Origin: a delta proteobacterium ML8_F1
GTDB lineage: Bacteria; Bacillota; Clostridia; Peptostreptococcales; Acidaminobacteraceae
DNA: 52,416 nt
NCBI GenBank assembly: GCA_002029975.1
Contig: LQBE01000008.1
Span: 21,501-73,916, forward strand
Direction of reading: 5' to 3'
The notes beneath the pieces are model-generated. The model was not told where the DNA came from, made no database searches, and worked only from the letters and a program-made list of their open reading frames with translations. Both the position numbers and the translations under genes were made by a program. Positions 14,896 to 48,316 of this stretch are shown in pieces (position 1 is the stretch's first letter; the number at the start of each line of letters is the position of its first letter).

Positions 14896-15123
14896 ATGTA
14901 CAAATTTTACTCTTTTATCTTCTACGCAGGCATCGCGACATCTCTGTATAGCGGAATTGGACTCAAATTTGGACTCCTCGAAGAAACCGTTGCAGGGCTC
15001 TACGGAATCCTGGGACTCGTGGGGACGGGGCTGGGTTTTGCCGGAAGGAACTATATCTACAAAAAACAGGAACTCGAAAAGCAGATCAAGGCAAAAAAAG
15101 GGAAAAAGGTCAGTTCTCAGTGA
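14896..15123 (+). CDS. Small membrane protein of unknown function
   Basis: A 75-residue protein with a hydrophobic N-terminal segment (about 5-20), a second Gly-rich hydrophobic segment (about 33-50) and a strongly basic tail (KKQELEKQIKAKKGKK). The two spans with a positive end suggest a small inner-membrane hairpin protein. The gene has GGGGGA before its ATG, its own -10 box and a terminator overlapping its stop codon, which supports its being real. I do not recognise a family. Confidence 0.6.
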   Translation: MYKFYSFIFYAGIATSLYSGIGLKFGLLEETVAGLYGILGLVGTGLGFAGRNYIYKKQELEKQIKAKKGKKVSSQ

Positions 15124-15137
15124 ACTGGCCTTTTTTT
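15103..15137. terminator. Bidirectional terminator between the small membrane protein and alr
   Basis: GGTCAGTTC (15108-15116) pairs with GAACTGGCC (15122-15130), flanked by A5 on the left and T7 on the right, so it can stop transcription from both sides. It covers the last codons of the plus-strand gene. Confidence 0.85.
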
Positions 15138-15142
15138 GCGGG

Positions 15143-16291
15143 TTAAAGAATCTGGTTCAGGACCTGGGAGGGTTTTCCTCCCTCGTAGTAGACTCTGGGC
15201 ACCCTGGAACTGATCCGGGCGAGAATTTCATTCTTGTTGGTCCCGGCCAGGGCGGCCACCTCGGCCACAGGGAGGTTTTCCCCGAAGAGCACTGCCTCAT
15301 CCCCGGTCTTCGCCCCGTCAATTGCAGTGATATCCACCATCAGCTGGTCCATGCAGATGATGCCCACAATGGGGGCCTTGAGGCCTCTGATGAGGACATG
15401 TCCGCGATTGGAGAGATTCCTGGGGTACCCGTCACCGTAGCCCACGGGCAGGGTGGCGATGCGACGGCGCCCTCTGGCCCTGAAGGTGAAGTCGTAGCTC
15501 ACCCCTTCACCGGAATCCAGGACATTGATCTGGGATATTCTGCTTACAAAGCGGGCGACGGGTGACAAGTCCACGGCATCACTGTGGTAGGATTTCAGAC
15601 CGTAGAGGGCGGCCCCGGGTCGGATCATGTCCAGGCGGAAATCAGGGGAGTCAATGCCGGCGATGCTGTCGGCAATATGAACAAGGTCAAAGTCTGTCTC
15701 AAGGTCCTGGATGAAACGGGTGAAACGTTTCAGTTGCACGGCGTCATCCTCCGGGGAGGTCAGAGCCAGATGGGAGAAAATTCCCTCCACCTTGAGATTG
15801 GACAAGCCGAGGATTTGATGGATTTCCCGTCGGGAGACTTCATCGGGTTTGAAGCCCAGTCGATTGAATCCGGTGTTGACTTTAAGATGCACTCTGGGTT
15901 TGAGGCCCAGTTCCCCGCCGATTTTGTGCAGCAGCCGGGCCTGCTGCACACTGAAGAGGGTGAGAGTGATTTCCCGCAGGGCACCGGTCCTGAGGTAGGG
16001 GTCGGGGGTGTGTCCCATGACCAGGATTGCCGCTTTGGGGTTGTGGTCCTTGAGGGCCAGGGCTTCCAGGAGATTGGCGACGCCCAGGTAGCGAAGGCCT
16101 TCCTCCATGAGGGCATCTGAAACAGGGGCGGCTCCGAGGCCGTAGGCATTGGCCTTGACCACCCCGGTGACGGCAACGCCGGGTCCGATAAGGTTTTTGA
16201 TTGCCCTGAGGTTTCTCTTGAGGACATCGAGATCGATTTCGAGGAGGGTGTCCCTGAAAATCAGGGAGGGGTCATAGGGTTTTAAAAACAT
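15143..16291 (-). CDS. alr: Alanine racemase
   Basis: A 382-residue PLP enzyme interconverting L- and D-alanine for peptidoglycan. The PLP lysine lies in TGVVKANAYGLGA (about residue 45) at the start of the TIM barrel, and the second catalytic base Tyr in GEGVSYDFTF, followed by RRIATLPVGYGDGYPR and the CMDQLMVDIT region of the C-terminal barrel. ATG at 16291 follows AAAGGAG. It stands alone on the minus strand and is divergent from the M20 amidohydrolase. Besides wall synthesis it may serve use of D-alanine released by the peptidases downstream. Confidence 0.95.
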   Translation of the reverse strand: MFLKPYDPSLIFRDTLLEIDLDVLKRNLRAIKNLIGPGVAVTGVVKANAYGLGAAPVSDALMEEGLRYLGVANLLEALALKDHNPKAAILVMGHTPDPYLRTGALREITLTLFSVQQARLLHKIGGELGLKPRVHLKVNTGFNRLGFKPDEVSRREIHQILGLSNLKVEGIFSHLALTSPEDDAVQLKRFTRFIQDLETDFDLVHIADSIAGIDSPDFRLDMIRPGAALYGLKSYHSDAVDLSPVARFVSRISQINVLDSGEGVSYDFTFRARGRRRIATLPVGYGDGYPRNLSNRGHVLIRGLKAPIVGIICMDQLMVDITAIDGAKTGDEAVLFGENLPVAEVAALAGTNKNEILARISSRVPRVYYEGGKPSQVLNQIL

Positions 16292-21567: not shown

Positions 21568-23211
21568 ATGAAAAGAAAACTGAGTTTGCTGCTTGTGGCC
21601 CTGTTGGTGATGGCCTTCATCTTCTCAGGATGCTCCAGTTCTCAAGAGCCCCAGGAGGAAGAACCGCCAAAGGAAATTGTCACTTTGAGAATCGGCGCCA
21701 AGACTGAACCGGATTCAACCAGTCCCCTGATTGCCACACTTTCCGCCTATGACATCATTGACAACCTGGTATACGACGACCTTATTGAATATGATGATGA
21801 CCTCAATCCAGTGGGTTCCCTGGCGGAGTCCTGGACCGTCAGCGATGACGGCCTCGAGTGGACCTTTGTCCTGAAGGAGGGAATCAAGTGGTTTGACGGA
21901 GAGGATTTCACTGCGGACGACGTGGTATGGACCTATAATGCCCTGGTCAACGGGGAGTTTCCCCAGAGTGTCCAGCTGGCCGGGGTCACTCAGGCGGAAA
22001 AAGTCGACGACTACACCGTCAAGGTAGTCACGGAAGCGCCCAAGGCGGACATGGAAGCGGCCAGGGTGTCAATCCTTCCTGAACATATCTATTCCGAATA
22101 CGCTCTTGAGGAACTCAATAGCTTTGCCGAGGAATTTCCGGTAGGAACGGGACCCTTTGAAATGGTAGAGTGGGAACCGGGACAGTTTATCAAATTCAAG
22201 GCCAATGAGGACTACTTTGCCAGTGCCCCTCAAATAGACGAGATAGTCTATGTCTTCTTTGCCAACGACGATACCCTCACCCAGGCCCTGACAGTGGGTG
22301 AAGTGGATGCCGTCACGGCCGTGGCGACGACACAAATCGATACCCTCAAAGCGGATGAGAACATTGAAGTGATTCAAGCCCTGGGCAGGAACTTCACCCA
22401 GCTGGGCTTCAACTGCTGGGAGGCCGAGGAATCCCTGGGCAATCCCCTGGTGCTTGACCCGGCCATCCGTCTCGCCACTGACTGGGCCCTGGACAAGGAA
22501 GAAATCGTCGCCATCGCCCTGAACGGTCTGGGAACCCCGGGAACTTCCCTGATTCCACCTTCAGTGGGAGAATGGCACTGGGAGCCCGGCGAGGAACGCC
22601 ACTCCTACAATCCTGAAAAAGCCAGGGAAATTCTTGAAAACGCCGGCTACACCGACACCGACGGAGACGGTATCCGGGAGGACAGCGAGGGGAACAAGCT
22701 GGACTTCAGGTTCGCTGTAATCTCCAGCTACGGAGAAGCCTACGTGAAAGCTTCTGCCATCATTCAGAAGAATCTCCAGGACATCGGCATCAACACCACC
22801 ATCACTCTGATGGACGGCGGCGCCCAGTCGGACCTCATCTATGAAGAGAACTTCGATACGGACATGTTCATCTGGGGCTGGGGCACAGAGCTGGATCCAA
22901 GTCTCAAGCTGTCGGTACTTCTGACGGAGCAGGTGGGCAAAAGAAGCGACGCATTTTATTCCAATGAAGCCTACGATGCCCTCTATCAAGAGCAGCTCGT
23001 AGAGGTAGACCGTGAAAAGCGTGTTGAAATCGTCCATGAAATGCAAAAAATCATCTATGAGGAAGCCCCCTATGTCATCCTGTACAACAAGGATTCCATA
23101 GAGGCCTATCGTACGGATAAATTCGAGGGATGGACCCGGGTGCCCTCAGAAATCGGCACCACCATCACCCAGGTCAACAAATCCAATTTCCTCAGCGTGA
23201 AGCCAAAATAA
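21568..23211 (+). CDS. Peptide ABC transporter substrate-binding lipoprotein
   Basis: A 547-residue SBP_bac_5 family binding protein. The real start is ATG 21568 behind AGGAGG; the frame stays open further upstream through the terminator and promoter. Residues 1-22 form a lipoprotein signal (basic KRK, hydrophobic core, lipobox FSGC), so the mature protein is anchored outside the membrane. The family start LRIGAKTEPDSTSPLIATLSAYDIIDNLVYDDLIEYDDDL is split here only by position; LAESWTVSDDGLEWTFVLKEG follows. It is the first gene of a five-gene transporter set plus hydrolase controlled by the sigma-54 promoter at 21499. Confidence 0.95.
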   Translation: MKRKLSLLLVALLVMAFIFSGCSSSQEPQEEEPPKEIVTLRIGAKTEPDSTSPLIATLSAYDIIDNLVYDDLIEYDDDLNPVGSLAESWTVSDDGLEWTFVLKEGIKWFDGEDFTADDVVWTYNALVNGEFPQSVQLAGVTQAEKVDDYTVKVVTEAPKADMEAARVSILPEHIYSEYALEELNSFAEEFPVGTGPFEMVEWEPGQFIKFKANEDYFASAPQIDEIVYVFFANDDTLTQALTVGEVDAVTAVATTQIDTLKADENIEVIQALGRNFTQLGFNCWEAEESLGNPLVLDPAIRLATDWALDKEEIVAIALNGLGTPGTSLIPPSVGEWHWEPGEERHSYNPEKAREILENAGYTDTDGDGIREDSEGNKLDFRFAVISSYGEAYVKASAIIQKNLQDIGINTTITLMDGGAQSDLIYEENFDTDMFIWGWGTELDPSLKLSVLLTEQVGKRSDAFYSNEAYDALYQEQLVEVDREKRVEIVHEMQKIIYEEAPYVILYNKDSIEAYRTDKFEGWTRVPSEIGTTITQVNKSNFLSVKPK

Positions 23212-23221
23212 TATGAATTCT

Positions 23222-23250
23222 GGGGATAGAGAAGAGCCTTCTCTATCCCC
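23222..23250 (+). repeat. Intercistronic hairpin between binding protein and permease genes
   Basis: A perfect 12-bp stem, GGGGATAGAGAA (23222-23233) with TTCTCTATCCCC (23239-23250), has a 5-base loop and no T-run. Such hairpins often protect the upstream message or cause partial termination, giving more binding protein than permease. Confidence 0.75.
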
Positions 23251-23277
23251 ACCTTAAAAAGGTGTGATGATGACTTC

Positions 23278-24249
23278 ATGAATATCAATTATGTCCTTAG
23301 AAAGCTCTTCCATTCTCTGATTACGGTCCTGATTGTAATTACCATCAACTTTTTTCTCTTTCGCATCATGCCGGGAGATCCCTTTGCCATGATTGCCAAG
23401 GCGGGAAACCTGTCGGCGGAGTACAAGGAATCCCTCAGTGCCCTTTACGGCTTTGACGAAGCATTCCACATTCAGTATCTGAAATATCTGAGACAGCTTT
23501 TCTCCTTTGATTTCGGACTGAGTTTCAAATACAGAAAACCCGTGCTGGAGGTCATCGGCAACAGGCTGGTGGCAACACTCCTTCTGGCCTTTTTCGCCCA
23601 GATATTCGCCATCGTAGCCGGTGCTGTCATCGGAACGATTTCCGCTGCCTTCCGGGGCAGGAAAATCGATGTGATGGCCCTGGGTTTCGCTCTACTGGTG
23701 TATGCCATTCCCGCCTTCTGGCTGGGAATTGTCCTGGTCCTGTTCTTTTCTGTCAAACTGGGGGCCTTCCCCCTCAACGGCATGGTGGTGGCCGGGATGA
23801 CCCACCCCACCACCTGGGCCTATGTCATGGATGTCGGACGGCATCTTGTCTTGCCGGTGATTACCATGGGCATGGCCATCATGGGGGGATATGCCATTAT
23901 CATGCGGGGATCCCTGCTGGATGTTTTCACAGAGGATTATATCACCACCGCCCGGGCAAAGGGTTTCAAACGCAGGGATATTGTAATCCATCACGCCCTC
24001 CCCAATGCCCTTTTGCCCATGGTTACCGTAATCGCCATCAATATGGGATTCATGATCAGTGGTGCGATTCAGACTGAAACCGTCTTCAGCTGGCCGGGAA
24101 TTGGTCGCCTGGTTTATGAGGCCCTGATGGCCAGGGACTACCCGGTACTCCAGGGGGCTTTTCTCATCATCAGTATCACTGTGATTCTGGCCAATCTGAT
24201 CGCTGATATCCTCTACGGATATCTCGACCCGCGAATCAAGTACGACTAA
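23278..24249 (+). CDS. Peptide ABC transporter permease, DppB/OppB type
   Basis: A 323-residue inner-membrane permease with six spans. It starts INYVLRKLFHSLITVLIVITINFFLFRIMPGDPF, the typical first span and periplasmic loop of DppB/OppB. The EAA loop that contacts the ATPase reads DYITTARAKGFKRRDIVIHHALPNALLP (split over about residues 221-248). The ribosome site (AAAGGTG) is weaker than that of the binding protein gene. It pairs with the DppC/OppC-type permease that begins 11 bases downstream. Confidence 0.93.
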   Translation: MNINYVLRKLFHSLITVLIVITINFFLFRIMPGDPFAMIAKAGNLSAEYKESLSALYGFDEAFHIQYLKYLRQLFSFDFGLSFKYRKPVLEVIGNRLVATLLLAFFAQIFAIVAGAVIGTISAAFRGRKIDVMALGFALLVYAIPAFWLGIVLVLFFSVKLGAFPLNGMVVAGMTHPTTWAYVMDVGRHLVLPVITMGMAIMGGYAIIMRGSLLDVFTEDYITTARAKGFKRRDIVIHHALPNALLPMVTVIAINMGFMISGAIQTETVFSWPGIGRLVYEALMARDYPVLQGAFLIISITVILANLIADILYGYLDPRIKYD

Positions 24250-27135: not shown

Positions 27136-27978
27136 ATGGAAAAACTTTCACTAGAAGCCAGACTCAGGGCTGAAGTGGTCAGCTTCAGCGGTCATGCAAG
27201 CTTTTATGCCAACGATTTCAAAGGAAATGTGATAGCCGTCAACGCCCATGAGCAGTTTGAGGCGGCCAGCGCCATCAAAGTGTTCATTCTTGCCGAGTTC
27301 TTCAGACAGGTCCATGAAGGAAGGCTGGACAGGCTTCGGCTCCTGACCTACGACAAAGAGAATTTTGTCACCGGCAGCGGTCTCCTACGGCACCTCGAAC
27401 CCGGTACCGCTCTGTCGGCGGAGAATCTGGCCCGGATGATGATTATCATCAGTGACAATATCGCTACCAATATGCTGATTGATCTTCTGGGGCTTGAAAA
27501 CATCAACCGGACTATTGAGTCCCTGGGTTTCACCAGTACCACCCTGCACAACAAAATTGACTTTGACCGCTACGAAAGGCTGGGAACCACCACTCCCAGG
27601 GATTACGGTGTCTATTTCGAGAAACTCCGGGAGGGGCTGCTCATTGCGCCGGAGATTTCCCGGGAGATGCTGGATGTCTTTAAAAAACAGCAGTACAACC
27701 GGATGCTCACCAAGGATTTTCCCCAGTACTATCTGGATTCGGAGGACACGGGGGATGAGGAGCTGATTGCCGTTGCTTCCAAAAGCGGCTCCATGGATGC
27801 GGCGAGAAATGACGGCGGCATTGTCTTCACCCCCTACGGCAGTTATGTCATTGTCATCTTCACCAAGCATTTCAAGGATCCCCTGTATTACAACGACCAT
27901 GAATCCTATATCTACGGCGCCAGGGCGTCACGACTCATTTTCAACCAGTATCTTGCCCTCAAGGGGAAATTCGAATAA
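27136..27978 (+). CDS. Cytoplasmic beta-lactamase-fold serine hydrolase
   Basis: A 280-residue protein of the class A beta-lactamase / penicillin-recognising fold. All three serine-site motifs are present: SAIK (Ser45, Lys48), SDN (106-108) and KSG (216-218). There is no signal peptide, unlike true beta-lactamases. The omega loop is shortened: the ExxLN motif holding the deacylating Glu is absent and TTP (152-154 region) comes soon after the SDN lobe. It is the last gene of the sigma-54-controlled transporter operon, with AAAGGAG before its ATG. I infer a cytoplasmic peptidase or amidase acting on imported peptides, perhaps with D-residues; antibiotic resistance is unlikely. Confidence 0.85.
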   Translation: MEKLSLEARLRAEVVSFSGHASFYANDFKGNVIAVNAHEQFEAASAIKVFILAEFFRQVHEGRLDRLRLLTYDKENFVTGSGLLRHLEPGTALSAENLARMMIIISDNIATNMLIDLLGLENINRTIESLGFTSTTLHNKIDFDRYERLGTTTPRDYGVYFEKLREGLLIAPEISREMLDVFKKQQYNRMLTKDFPQYYLDSEDTGDEELIAVASKSGSMDAARNDGGIVFTPYGSYVIVIFTKHFKDPLYYNDHESYIYGARASRLIFNQYLALKGKFE

Positions 27979-27980
27979 GA

Positions 27981-28011
27981 AAAAGGTCATCTGTCGAAGA
28001 TGACCTTTTTT
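27981..28011. terminator. Bidirectional terminator between the peptide operon and znuB
   Basis: AAAAGGTCATC (27981-27991) pairs with GATGACCTTTT (27999-28009) over a 7-base loop, with T-runs on both strands. The stop codon of znuB lies in it. Confidence 0.9.
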
Positions 28012-28799
28012 GTCAAAAAAACAAGGACATAGGCAAAGACGCTGATGAGGACGATGGAGGCTCCGGAAGGAATGCTGGTATAGTAGGAGATCCACAGTCC
28101 CGTGAGACTGAAGAGCAGGCCCAGACCCATGGAACTCAGAATCAGCCGGCTGAAGGATCGGGCGTAAAACCTTGAAATGGACGGGGGAATGGTGAGAAGG
28201 GCCATGATCAGAATGATTCCCACGAGCTTGATCAGGGCGACAATGGAAAGGGCGATGAGAAAATAGAGGATATAATCCATCCAGAGGGTTTTGATTCCCA
28301 TGATAAAGGTGAACTCCCCATCGAAGAGATAGGCCTTCCAGATATTGTAGAAGGAGAGGAGTACCGTCAGTACCAGGGCGGTGACGACTATCATCACATT
28401 GAGGTTGGTCTTTGAGATGGTGAGGATGTTTCCAAAGAGATAGGAGTTCATGTCCGGGGGATAACCCGGAGTGAAGGCAATGAAGAGAATCCCCAGGGCC
28501 ATCCCGAAGGACCAGAGCATGGCGGTGAGGTTTTCACTGCCGGTATCGCTTTTTCGGTCGATGGTGGGCACGAGTATGGAGGCGAAGGTAGAGAACATAA
28601 AAGCACCGTAGATGGGCTCGAATCCCAGCATGTAGCCAAGGCCGATGCCGCCGAAGGAGGCATGGGCGATGCCGCTTGAAAGCATCAGCCATTTCTTTTC
28701 AACGATGATGGAGCCGATGATTCCAGTGAGTATGCTGGCCAGAAGGGCGCCCCACAGGGCGTTTTGCATGAACTGGTAGGAAACAATGGCATTAATCAT
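27987..28799 (-). CDS. znuB: Zinc ABC transporter permease
   Basis: A 270-residue metal-importer permease of the ZnuB/MntB (ABC-3) family with about eight spans. The start MINAIVSYQFMQNALWGALLASILTGIIG is typical; the SSGIAHASFGGIGLGY motif near residue 50 is the family's conserved block. I place the start at 28799, with GGGAGG eight bases upstream, overlapping the end of znuC; the frame extends 12 codons further but without a site. It is the third gene of znuA-znuC-znuB. Confidence 0.92.
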   Translation of the reverse strand: MINAIVSYQFMQNALWGALLASILTGIIGSIIVEKKWLMLSSGIAHASFGGIGLGYMLGFEPIYGAFMFSTFASILVPTIDRKSDTGSENLTAMLWSFGMALGILFIAFTPGYPPDMNSYLFGNILTISKTNLNVMIVVTALVLTVLLSFYNIWKAYLFDGEFTFIMGIKTLWMDYILYFLIALSIVALIKLVGIILIMALLTIPPSISRFYARSFSRLILSSMGLGLLFSLTGLWISYYTSIPSGASIVLISVFAYVLVFLTKKVIFDR

Positions 28800-32188: not shown

Positions 32189-32206
32189 TACCCTGAAAAT
32201 AATAAG

Positions 32207-32317
32207 TTCTTCAGGGCAGGGTGAAATTCCCTACCGGCGGTACAGCCCGCGACCCTCTTACCCAAGAGGCTGATCTGGTGAGATTCCAGAGCCGACAGTA
32301 TAGTCTGGATGGAAGAA
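32207..32317 (+). promoter_or_regulatory. FMN riboswitch (RFN element)
   Basis: The closing stem TTCTTC (32207-32212) with GAAGAA (32312-32317) encloses the conserved blocks AGGGCAGGGTGAAATTCCC, TACCGGCGGT, AGCCCGCGA and, at the 3' side, GAGATTCCAGAGCCGACAGT and GTCTGGATGG. It precedes the riboflavin transporter gene ribU, a known target. The terminator at 32351-32376 is the likely output. Confidence 0.97.
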
Positions 32318-32350
32318 GAGACTTTTTTTGAATTCTTTCTTATGGACCTG

Positions 32351-36527: not shown

Positions 36528-36719
36528 ATGGGAGTGATGGTGACCGCAGGCATCGCCCTGGTGATCGGTCTGTATTTTTTCAAGGTGGTCGGCGGCGCTC
36601 TCGGAGGTTTGAAACGGGGAACACCGCAGGCCTGCAGGGAATGCAGTGCCCAGGGCTGCCCCTTTGGAGCCAAGGAAAGCTCCGGTCGACCTATTGACAA
36701 AAGCTGCAATAATCGGTAG
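36528..36719 (+). CDS. FeoB-associated Cys-rich small membrane protein
   Basis: A 63-residue protein with one N-terminal span (about 3-27) and a short tail with CRECSAQGCPFG and a further Cys near the end. This matches the small FeoB-associated Cys-rich proteins that often follow feoB in Firmicutes; their role may be iron or redox sensing at the transporter. AGGAGG precedes the ATG nine bases after feoB. The asnA promoter begins inside its last codons. Confidence 0.85.
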   Translation: MGVMVTAGIALVIGLYFFKVVGGALGGLKRGTPQACRECSAQGCPFGAKESSGRPIDKSCNNR

Positions 36720-36722
36720 GAT
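36694..36722 (+). promoter_or_regulatory. Promoter of the asnA leader
   Basis: TTGACA (36694-36699), 17 bases, TAGGAT (36717-36722). The start near 36729 gives a leader of about 235 bases before asnA. Confidence 0.65.
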
Positions 36723-36732
36723 GTCAGCAGAC

Positions 36733-36934
36733 AAGGCTCCAGGACAGGGAGTTTCGAGTCCGCTCTCGGGCAATTTTTCAAAGGAACCAGGGCGACTTAG
36801 CTGCCCTGGCTTTTCCGGGGAAAATCAGGAATCTGCCCCGGGATCCACCAGCGGACATCAGTCAGTGCCTTGGTTGAACCGGCAATGCGAAATCCCTTCG
36901 CCTCTTGAATGTCCCGGGAGTCCGAAGGTTTTTT
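36733..36934 (+). ncRNA. Structured asnA leader with attenuator, class not recognised
   Basis: AAGGC (36733-36737) can pair with GCCTT (36867-36871), enclosing hairpins CCAGGGC/GCCCTGG (36787-36809) and CCGGGG/CCCCGG (36815-36841). Behind it, two hairpins exclude each other because they share TTCG: GCGAA/TTCGC (36887-36901) and the terminator CCTTCG/CGAAGG (36895-36928) with six T (to 36934). This is the layout of a transcription-attenuating riboswitch or T-box, but the conserved T-box sequence is not found. The ligand or signal is unknown. Confidence 0.6.
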
Positions 36935-36962
36935 CTTTGAAAAAAAACAGGAGGTTTTCACC

Positions 36963-37964
36963 ATGAGCCACACGACTATCCCCAAGGGGTATCAACCAAA
37001 GCTCAATCTGATTGAGACTGAAATCGCCATCAAGAAGCTCAAGGAGCATTTCCAGGATGCCCTGAGCCAGGAACTGAGACTTCTGAGGGTTTCAGCACCC
37101 ATGTTTGTAGAGGCGGCCACGGGACTCAATGACAATCTCAACGGCTTTGAAACCCCGGTCTCCTTTGAGTTCGATTCCAAGAGGATTGAAATTGTCCACT
37201 CCCTGGCCAAGTGGAAACGCATGGCCCTTTTTCGCTATGGCATCGGTCCGGGGGAAGGACTCTACACCGATATGAATGCCATCCGCAAGGATGAATCACT
37301 GGACAATATCCACTCCATCTATGTGGACCAGTGGGACTGGGAAAAGGTCATCGACAAGTCGGACCGGACGGAGGCCAAGCTCAGGGAGATTGTGCACAGA
37401 ATCTACAAGGTCTTTAAAAGTACTGAGGACTACATCGTGGGGGAGTACCCTGTGTTGTCCAGGAATCTGCCTGAAGAGATCGCCTTTGTCACTACCCGGG
37501 AACTTGAGGCCCGTTTTCCCGGGATGACCCCCAAGGAACGGGAGGACCGCATTGCCAAGGAGAAAAAAGCGGTCTTCATTATGAAAATCGGTGGCGCTCT
37601 GGCATCCGGCGAGCCCCACGACGGCAGGGCCCCGGACTACGATGACTGGGAGCTCAATGGGGACATTATCTTTTACAATCCCGTCCTTGGCAAGGCTTTG
37701 GAGCTCAGTTCCATGGGGATCCGGGTGGACGAGGAGACTCTTGTCAAGCAGCTGGAAATCGCCGGAGCCACGGACCGCAGGGAAATGGCCTTTCACCGGA
37801 TGCTGCTTCAAAAGAAACTGCCCTACACCATTGGCGGAGGTATCGGTCAATCCAGAATCTGCATGTACTTTTTGCAAAAGGCCCATATCGGAGAGGTCCA
37901 GGCGAGTTTCTGGGATGAAAAGACTCTGAGAATCTGTGAGCAGGCCGGCGTCAAACTTCTATGA
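36963..37964 (+). CDS. asnA: Aspartate-ammonia ligase (asparagine synthetase A)
   Basis: A 333-residue ammonia-dependent asparagine synthetase, related to class II aminoacyl-tRNA synthetases. ATG 36963 follows AGGAGG; the frame also runs 18 codons upstream through the terminator. Landmarks: VSAPMFVEAATGLNDNLNGFE, VHSLAKWKRMALFRYG, GLYTDMNAIRKDE, VDQWDWEKVI and the C-terminal motif-3-like YTIGGGIGQSRICM. It makes asparagine from aspartate, ammonia and ATP in the cytoplasm. It stands alone between a long leader and a terminator. Confidence 0.96.
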   Translation: MSHTTIPKGYQPKLNLIETEIAIKKLKEHFQDALSQELRLLRVSAPMFVEAATGLNDNLNGFETPVSFEFDSKRIEIVHSLAKWKRMALFRYGIGPGEGLYTDMNAIRKDESLDNIHSIYVDQWDWEKVIDKSDRTEAKLREIVHRIYKVFKSTEDYIVGEYPVLSRNLPEEIAFVTTRELEARFPGMTPKEREDRIAKEKKAVFIMKIGGALASGEPHDGRAPDYDDWELNGDIIFYNPVLGKALELSSMGIRVDEETLVKQLEIAGATDRREMAFHRMLLQKKLPYTIGGGIGQSRICMYFLQKAHIGEVQASFWDEKTLRICEQAGVKLL

Positions 37965-46679: not shown

Positions 46680-48242
46680 TTGTTTAAAAAGAAAATGGCA
46701 TGGCTGTTGGTCTTAGTGATGGTAGGGGCTAGTCTGGCCGGTTGTTCTTCGCCCGCTGAGGAAGCTCCTGAGAAGGTTTTGGTCTGGAACATCGGTTCAG
46801 AGCCCAAAACCATTGATCCAGGTCTCAATGCGGCCTCTGATGGCGGCGATGTGATCAACCAGTTGTTCGAGGGACTGATGCGTGAAGTCGGCGGAAGTCT
46901 CGAGCCCGGCATGGCCGAGAGTTATACTGTTTCTGACGATAAGCTGGTATACACTTTTGTCCTGAGGGATGCAAAATGGTCGGATGGCGAGCCGGTTACG
47001 GCCTATGATTTCGAATACTCATGGGCACGGGTTCTCGACCCGGAAACGGCCTCCGAATACTCCTGGATTTTTGATGAAGCCCGCGTGGCAAGTTTCAAGG
47101 CCCTGGACGAGAAGACCTTTGAAGTGACTTTGGCCGACCCGGCGCCTTATTTCCTGGGACTGACGGCTTTCTTCACCTTCATGCCCGTCAGAGAAGATGC
47201 CGTGACTCAGGGAGCCGACGGTGCCTGGGCGATCAATCCCGAAGTGGCTGTAGCCAATGGTCCCTTCAAACTGACGGAGTACACCACCGGCGACAGACTG
47301 GTGCTTGAAAAGAACGAGAACTACTGGAGAGCCGATGAGGTGAAAATCGATAAGATTGAAGGTTTGATGATTGTCGACCTCACCACCTCTTTGACCGCCT
47401 ATGAATCCGGAGAAGTCCATGTCATCGACGCTATGCCCGCCGAGGAGCTTCCCCGACTGATGGCAGAGGATGAGACCCTGTATATCCTGCCCATGGACGG
47501 TGTGTACTATTACGCCTTCAATGTGGAAGTGGAACCCCTGGACAATCCCCTGGTCAGAAAAGCCCTGAGCTATGCCATTGATCGTGAAGCGATTGTGGAT
47601 GTGCTCAACGGTGGACAAATCCCGGCGACCAACATGGTTTCCCCCGCTTCCTACGACGACAAGGGCAATGTCTTCAGTGAGGAAACCGGAGACTACACTC
47701 CCGTCGGTTCTGAGGGCATTGAAGAAGCCAAGGCGCTTCTGGCTGAAGCCGGCTATCCCGGTGGCGAAGGCTTCCCGGAACTGGAGCTCCTATACAACAC
47801 CAACGATGACCATAAGATGATTGCTGAAATTCTTCAGGAAATGTGGAAGACCAATCTTGGAATCAATGTGACCCTGGCCAATCAAGAATGGGCCGTCTTC
47901 CAGGATACCCGTCGAGAGGGCGGTTTTGAAATGGCCAGAGGCGGTTGGATCGGGGACTACTCAGACCCCATGACCTATCTCGGCATGTTCCTCTCCGAGT
48001 CTCCCATGAACTACTCCAGGTGGAAGAGTCCTGAGTACGACGCCCTTTTGAATGAGGCGAAAACCTCAGAGCCCGCCAAGCGCTTCGAGCTGCTCTACGA
48101 AGCCCACCGGCTCATGATGGAGGATCACGCCTACATGCCTGTCTACATCTACACGGATCCCCTCATGGTATCCGATGCTGTGACCGGTTGGGAAAAAACC
48201 ACCAGGAATGTTTTCTGGTTCGGATTTGCAGATATCCAGTAG
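46680..48242 (+). CDS. oppA: Oligopeptide-binding lipoprotein
   Basis: A 520-residue SBP_bac_5 protein. The start is TTG 46680 behind GGAGGGG; upstream in-frame ATGs lack spacing to a site and would precede the signal peptide. Residues 1-22 form a lipoprotein signal ending in SLAGC. The mature start LVWNIGSEPKTIDPGLNAASDGGDV and the block DAKWSDGEPVTAYDFEYSW are typical of OppA. It supplies peptides to OppBCDF, and its separate promoter allows a higher level than the membrane parts. Confidence 0.93.
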   Translation: MFKKKMAWLLVLVMVGASLAGCSSPAEEAPEKVLVWNIGSEPKTIDPGLNAASDGGDVINQLFEGLMREVGGSLEPGMAESYTVSDDKLVYTFVLRDAKWSDGEPVTAYDFEYSWARVLDPETASEYSWIFDEARVASFKALDEKTFEVTLADPAPYFLGLTAFFTFMPVREDAVTQGADGAWAINPEVAVANGPFKLTEYTTGDRLVLEKNENYWRADEVKIDKIEGLMIVDLTTSLTAYESGEVHVIDAMPAEELPRLMAEDETLYILPMDGVYYYAFNVEVEPLDNPLVRKALSYAIDREAIVDVLNGGQIPATNMVSPASYDDKGNVFSEETGDYTPVGSEGIEEAKALLAEAGYPGGEGFPELELLYNTNDDHKMIAEILQEMWKTNLGINVTLANQEWAVFQDTRREGGFEMARGGWIGDYSDPMTYLGMFLSESPMNYSRWKSPEYDALLNEAKTSEPAKRFELLYEAHRLMMEDHAYMPVYIYTDPLMVSDAVTGWEKTTRNVFWFGFADIQ

Positions 48243-48250
48243 GATTTTTA

Positions 48251-48284
48251 AAGCCCTCTGATGAACGAATCAGAGGGCTTTTTT
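48251..48284 (+). terminator. Terminator after oppA
   Basis: A perfect 12-bp stem, AAGCCCTCTGAT (48251-48262) with ATCAGAGGGCTT (48269-48280), is followed by six T. Confidence 0.94.
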
Positions 48285-48316
48285 CATTAAATTTTTATTG
48301 CAACAATCAAATCTTA

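Follow-up and report, generated by a model that had tools for sequence, protein, structure and literature searches.

The window analyzed here, 52,416 nucleotides of contig LQBE01000008.1 (positions 21,501 to 73,916; G000:C8:21501-73916), comes from the assembly of delta proteobacterium ML8_F1 (GCA_002029975.1), which GTDB places in the Acidaminobacteraceae. On its plus strand lies asnA (36963-37964), which encodes aspartate--ammonia ligase (TIGR00669, 330 bits) and is preceded by the ribosome binding site AGGAGG (36949-36954); its neighbors are feoB and a small cysteine-containing open frame on one side and a pcrA-like helicase gene on the other. This is the sole asparagine synthetase gene that we found: no asnB-type domain (PF00733) was detected in the genome, whose assembly is 98.84% complete. 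AsnRS is present. AsnA is conserved about as well as its counterpart in a sister species, with 254-261 identities to three outgroups compared to 259-265 for the sister protein; these counts suggest that it evolves little faster. Given this, and given the lack of an asnB-type domain, AsnA seems to be needed by the cell. Elsewhere in the window there is an FMN riboswitch (32203-32324; 120 bits, Rfam).

A sigma-70-like promoter lies upstream of asnA on the plus strand (36694-36722), with TTGACA (36694-36699) and TAGGAT (36717-36722) separated by a 17-nt spacer. Ten of the 12 bases agree with the consensus and the block is similar to that of the sister leader, bearing out a preliminary description of this DNA, made from the letters alone, that had called the promoter strong. 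Transcription would start near 36729. An open frame of 106 codons (36646-36966) runs through the leader and overlaps the asnA start as ATGA. Leader-peptide attenuation was considered and rejected; none of the three frames of 36728-36962 has a cluster of Asn codons.

At the 3' end of the leader, the same description had proposed two mutually exclusive hairpins that share TTCG, the second of them a terminator, and this is what we find. The first is a 15-nt hairpin, GCGAA-ATCCC-TTCGC (36887-36901, plus strand), recognized by alignment to the sister leader and by folding as a remnant of helix A2, part of the antiterminator of a T-box. The second is an intrinsic terminator (36895-36934, plus strand) in which CCTTCG pairs with CGAAGG (6+6 bp) ahead of six T residues. 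The TTCG at 36897-36900 belongs both to the small hairpin and to the 5' arm of the terminator, and the two cannot coexist, as is the case for helix A2 and the terminator in T-boxes. The terminator has a predicted energy of -13.4 kcal/mol, compared to -12.5 kcal/mol for that of the sister, and it is weaker than this in 7 of 30 relatives; 83 of 2000 shuffled versions of this stem-loop fold as well. It stands 28 nt upstream of the asnA start codon, and a promoter cannot fit in between.

Searches for a T-box in the leader

A T-box had been expected at asnA, and the family bears this out: with the Rfam model, 14 asnA loci of the family were scanned and 12 have one, 11 with scores above the gathering threshold. 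None is seen at the locus of the window (L024) or at L052 (G005), where just 225 upstream bases are available. Of 16 asnA loci in the rest of the order, 11 have a T-box. These 30 loci, including the window's own, were taken from asnA matches; seven further matches were not taken as loci, five in the family (G030, G036, G033, G024, and G006), which are more distant at 53-58% identity, and two in the order (G045 and the partial G040). With T-boxes at so many family and other-family loci, a T-box at asnA is most simply the ancestral state.

In the leader itself, a T-box covariance search, the check proposed in the preliminary description, gave no significant match. With the Rfam T-box model (RF00230), there is no match at the gathering score, none at E<=10 in 36600-37050, and, for L024, none at E<=0.01. 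That the search is effective in this genome is shown by the 18 T-boxes it finds elsewhere there, five of them above the gathering score. As for other Rfam families, the only matches were two to lncRNAs with E values of 4-7, which we take as chance.

We also built covariance models of the two halves of the T-box from asnA leaders. A T-box regular expression matches 37 of 108 other asnA loci (L054, on the same contig as L025, was excluded), and L031, missed by the expression but found by Rfam, brings the number to 38. Of these, 31 were used for alignments (L062, L064, L076, L080, L082, L100, and L106 were left out), and each model alignment holds 30 sequences: L059 was dropped from the 3' alignment and L111 from that of stem I, the ends of both not having been properly located. 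With the stem I model, the best score in the leader is 3.2 bits (E 0.85). Applied to the 18 T-boxes of the same genome, most of which serve other amino acids than the model does, it gives 81 bits for the aspS2 T-box (L004), E values below 0.01 for 10, and weaker scores, down to 9.1 bits (L016), for six; two are missed (L014 and L017). L025 is one of the model's own sequences. The AGUA motif (AGTA in the DNA) does not occur on either strand of the leader, and no specifier domain is detectable; in 30 of 30 aligned relatives the specifier is AAC.

The 3' domain retains recognizable pieces of a T-box. The defining features of T-boxes that we applied as membership criteria come from the available portion of a review (PMC7583486). 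A remnant of the T-box bulge, CGGCAAT (36880-36886, plus strand), aligns with TGGCAAC in the sister; CGGC (36880-36883) stands where the sister bulge has TGGC and is not of the form UGGN, and the base expected to pair with A76 of the tRNA is a C. TGG is kept in all 18 other T-boxes of the genome (15 by motif, L007 and L009 by eye, and L018 as well). Helix A1 is absent: as read from the alignments, GAAC replaces the AGAG of the sister and is unable to pair with CTCT. The 3'-domain model scores the remnant at 10.2 bits (E 2.2, the second of seven hits, which is chance level) and each of the 18 T-boxes of the same genome at 17.7-60.6 bits, every one at its proper place; by this comparison the 3' domain is altered. 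T-box elements, which the preliminary description had also failed to find, are not found in the leader by Rfam, by the stem I model, or by inspection of the bulge and helix A1.

These results bear on whether the leader is still a working, extremely diverged T-box that binds tRNA-Asn. The conserved position at the gene, the A2 hairpin, and the terminator all fit, and three of the four bulge bases remain complementary to GCCA. However, with no stem I seen by the model, no AGTA on either strand, CGGC in place of UGGN, and a helix A1 that cannot form, we consider this very unlikely.

Comparison with the sister leader

The sister genome (G001, JAGYOH010000008.1) is the sole other genome compared from the genus, and its AsnA shares 292 of 333 residues (88%) with that of the window. 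Its asnA leader is a canonical T-box (98.3 bits, Rfam) with an asparagine codon in GAACATCCC. Aligned with it, the promoter block of the window (36694-36734) has a local score of 39 (shuffle maximum 30); with 500 shuffles each, none of 36690-36735 and one of 36690-36745 score as high. At the other end, the block at 36880-36935 scores 61 (shuffle maximum 28), and 0 of 500 shuffles reach the score of 36881-36934. Both the promoter end and the antiterminator/terminator end of the leader therefore resemble the sister T-box leader beyond chance. At 36881-36911, a block picked after the alignment was seen, 28 of 30 aligned bases are identical, whereas fourfold sites of asnA are identical at 75 of 125 positions (60%); this difference suggests that the block is under constraint, or was so until recently.

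Between these ends the similarity is lost. In the sister, it ends on the promoter side at 310 nt before asnA, at the beginning of the T-box, and starts again at 137 nt before asnA, past the stem II region and ahead of stem III. By the block tests and the stem I model, the segment at 36735-36826 (plus strand), which takes the place of stems I and II of the sister T-box, has no detectable homology to the sister leader over at least 92 bases. The middle block at 36735-36840 has a local score of 25 compared to a shuffle mean of 24, and 196 of 500 shuffles reach it. Weak similarity returns at 36827-36856 (15 of 500 shuffles reach the score of the block at 36816-36855), with little more up to 36880.

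Fifteen pairs of orthologous T-box leaders from the two genomes, matched through the proteins encoded downstream, show 72-91% identity over ungapped columns and local scores of 164-510. For the asnA leaders the identity is 68%, the alignment has many gaps, and the local score is 51, where shuffles reach at most 27. We infer that stem I was lost through replacement or deletion rather than by slow drift alone.

An origin from a T-box at the orthologous position is visible in the block tests, in the alignment, and in the distribution of T-boxes among relatives, and it is invisible to profile models. We think it probable that the ancestor of this leader was a canonical T-box for tRNA-Asn and that, in this lineage, the half that binds the tRNA was replaced or eroded away. 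The claim of descent depends on a pairwise comparison with a single sister species; the Rfam and 3'-domain models see the remnant no better than chance.

The segment without homology comes from a single genome, as would be the case if 100-150 bases had been misassembled into an otherwise canonical T-box. However, the bulge, helix A1, and the terminator, which such a segment would not include, have changes that resemble ordinary divergence, and at E<=1 nothing else in the genome matches the middle of the leader; an assembly artefact is, in our judgment, highly improbable.

Structure and relatives of the middle of the leader

Inside the non-homologous segment there is a strong hairpin, GGAACCAGGGCG...UGCCCUGG CUU UUCC (36783-36816, plus strand, -18 kcal/mol). 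The 71-nt tile that contains it (36757-36827) has the seventh lowest z among the 1,454 plus-strand tiles of the window. We judged the strength of the hairpin region by this ranking and not by a single mononucleotide z, which is -4.3 for 36780-36850, or -3.4 with another shuffle set. Local folds with z stronger than that of the asnA leader tile occur in the window at 23185-23291, 48241-48311, 15085-15155, and 27973-28043.

Taken whole, the leader is no more stably folded than its dinucleotide shuffles (z -0.76); with mononucleotide shuffles z is -2.49. The closing stem that the preliminary description had drawn around a multi-hairpin region, AAGGC (36733) with GCCTT (36867), is indistinguishable from chance. 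There are 18 distant 5-bp complementary pairs in the leader, where 100 shuffles average 9.6 and reach 19 at most, and with so many pairs any single one of them is little informative.

We also asked if the middle could be a piece of a T-box, forward or inverted, and rejected this, the best matches to 49 T-box leaders being not clearly better than those of shuffles. In four settings, 4, 19, 41, and 54 of 60 shuffles reach the matches; the closest case is the inverted segment at 36735-36826 (4 of 60).

Two stretches of the leader (36837-36843 and 36762-36769) are complementary to the 3' side of the terminator and could open it, and in the predicted ensemble of the full leader the terminator has a probability of only 0.13. 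These observations are consistent with a repurposed attenuator, in which the T-box platform was kept and the sensor was replaced by another domain (36735-36880, with the hairpin at 36783-36816) that opens the terminator on another signal, RNA or protein. So too are the rank of the hairpin tile, the mononucleotide z of the whole leader, and the presence of a terminator of sister strength before an intact asparagine synthetase gene that is the only one found. However, the terminator probability ranges between 0.003 and 0.99 depending on which 5' end is chosen, and 45% of 300 dinucleotide-shuffled 5' parts give a probability as low or lower, so that we reject a 5' part tuned to open the terminator; the dinucleotide z of the leader likewise tells against repurposing, and blastn, an insensitive search, found no second member and hence no covariation evidence. 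We regard repurposing as doubtful, a swapped sensor being possible but unsupported. The more specific case, in which an unrelated structured domain took the place of the half that reads the tRNA, the antiterminator and terminator were kept, and asnA came under a signal other than tRNA-Asn charging, strikes us as unlikely.

Searches for further members of the leader covered 41 family genomes and 393 genomes of the order by blastn, with the best two candidates scored per genome in the order; no second member was found in either set, and both searches also missed the homologous sister leader. The one match in the order besides the window itself, in G108 (L177, around 1501-1552), covers 55 bases at 78% identity to 36875-36929 (E 3.9e-4 per genome); it lies in what reads as a UvrD/Rep-type helicase frame, has no Rfam match there, and we take it as chance because about 0.15 such hits are expected across 393 genomes. 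Within the genome itself, the search for another copy of the leader gave, at E<=1, only four matches, each 19-23 bases long and close to the leader's 3' end. A scan of viral contigs for asnA yielded nine loci, and no relatives of the leader were found in phage records.

The form of the leader is that of an attenuator, as it would be in a new riboswitch class unrelated to T-boxes. Its 3' end, though, is like the antiterminator and terminator of the sister T-box (0 of 500 shuffles), and such a class is barely credible; beyond the one strong hairpin, a new RNA class is without support. The preliminary description had left the choice between a divergent T-box and a new class. T-box descent is supported, both ends of the leader being like those of the sister, and a working variant is not, as the specifier domain, the UGGN bulge, and helix A1 were sought without success.

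Consequences for asnA and relation to known systems

Without a specifier, a bulge, and helix A1, tRNA-Asn should be unable to hold the antiterminator. If the leader is indeed a T-box that lost its tRNA-binding half, uncharged tRNA-Asn would no longer stabilize the antiterminator, and asnA would be expressed through incomplete termination at the retained terminator. Expression would then be more or less constitutive and uncoupled from tRNA-Asn charging. Two observations strain this explanation: a working terminator behind a dead sensor would be expected to shut asnA off, but AsnA is conserved about as in the sister; and the terminator is undecayed.

The loss of control over asnA may be tolerable if there is a second route to Asn-tRNA that is still under T-box control. 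On another contig, a full Asn T-box (L004, G000:C15:40093-40343, minus strand, 98.6 bits) precedes aspS2 (L170, G000:C15:38744-40021, minus strand), which encodes a probable non-discriminating AspRS; the best NCBIfam match of its first 42 residues is aspartate--tRNA(Asn) ligase. About 1.8 kb further on the same strand lies gatB (L163, G000:C15:36082-36936, minus strand). With a probable aspS2 under an Asn T-box and gatB on one contig, the cell may have such a second route. A two-codon T-box reportedly occurs at an operon of this kind in a Clostridium. The sister has the same aspS2 T-box, yet kept the T-box at asnA.

The locus offers a concrete case in which the sensor of a riboswitch was lost and its terminator kept before an apparently needed gene, with an intact sister copy for comparison, and it makes testable if the remnant is dead, leaky, or repurposed. 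If it is repurposed, nature would here have exchanged the sensor on a T-box platform. More generally, an attenuator that appears to be of unknown class can prove to be a broken member of a known one.

Classical leader-peptide attenuators combine mutually exclusive hairpins with a terminator; the asnA leader is like them in this respect and differs in having no cluster of Asn codons. In the available portion of their study, Wels et al. (2008, PMC2494555) describe the evolution of T-boxes by duplication and divergence, report that no T-boxes were found upstream of amidotransferase genes, and note one degenerated T-box, in an MFS transporter family. The asnA leader resembles that case, a T-box region that is not intact before a gene of a T-box-regulated family; no replacement of the sensor is described in that portion. 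In searches of the open PMC literature, judged by title and the start of the abstract, no paper on a T-box at asnA with a lost sensor and a kept terminator came up.

The closest known system is the asparagine-specific T-box (RF00230) at asnA in the sister. Unlike it, the leader in the window has no stems I and II and no AAC specifier, its stem III is not recognizable, CGGC stands for TGGC, helix A1 is lost, and the distance from the -35 box to the start codon is 81 nt shorter (269 compared to 350). What the two have in common is their orthologous position, the promoter block, the terminator, and the A2 hairpin whose TTCG is shared with the terminator, within a stretch of nearly identical bases (36881-36911).
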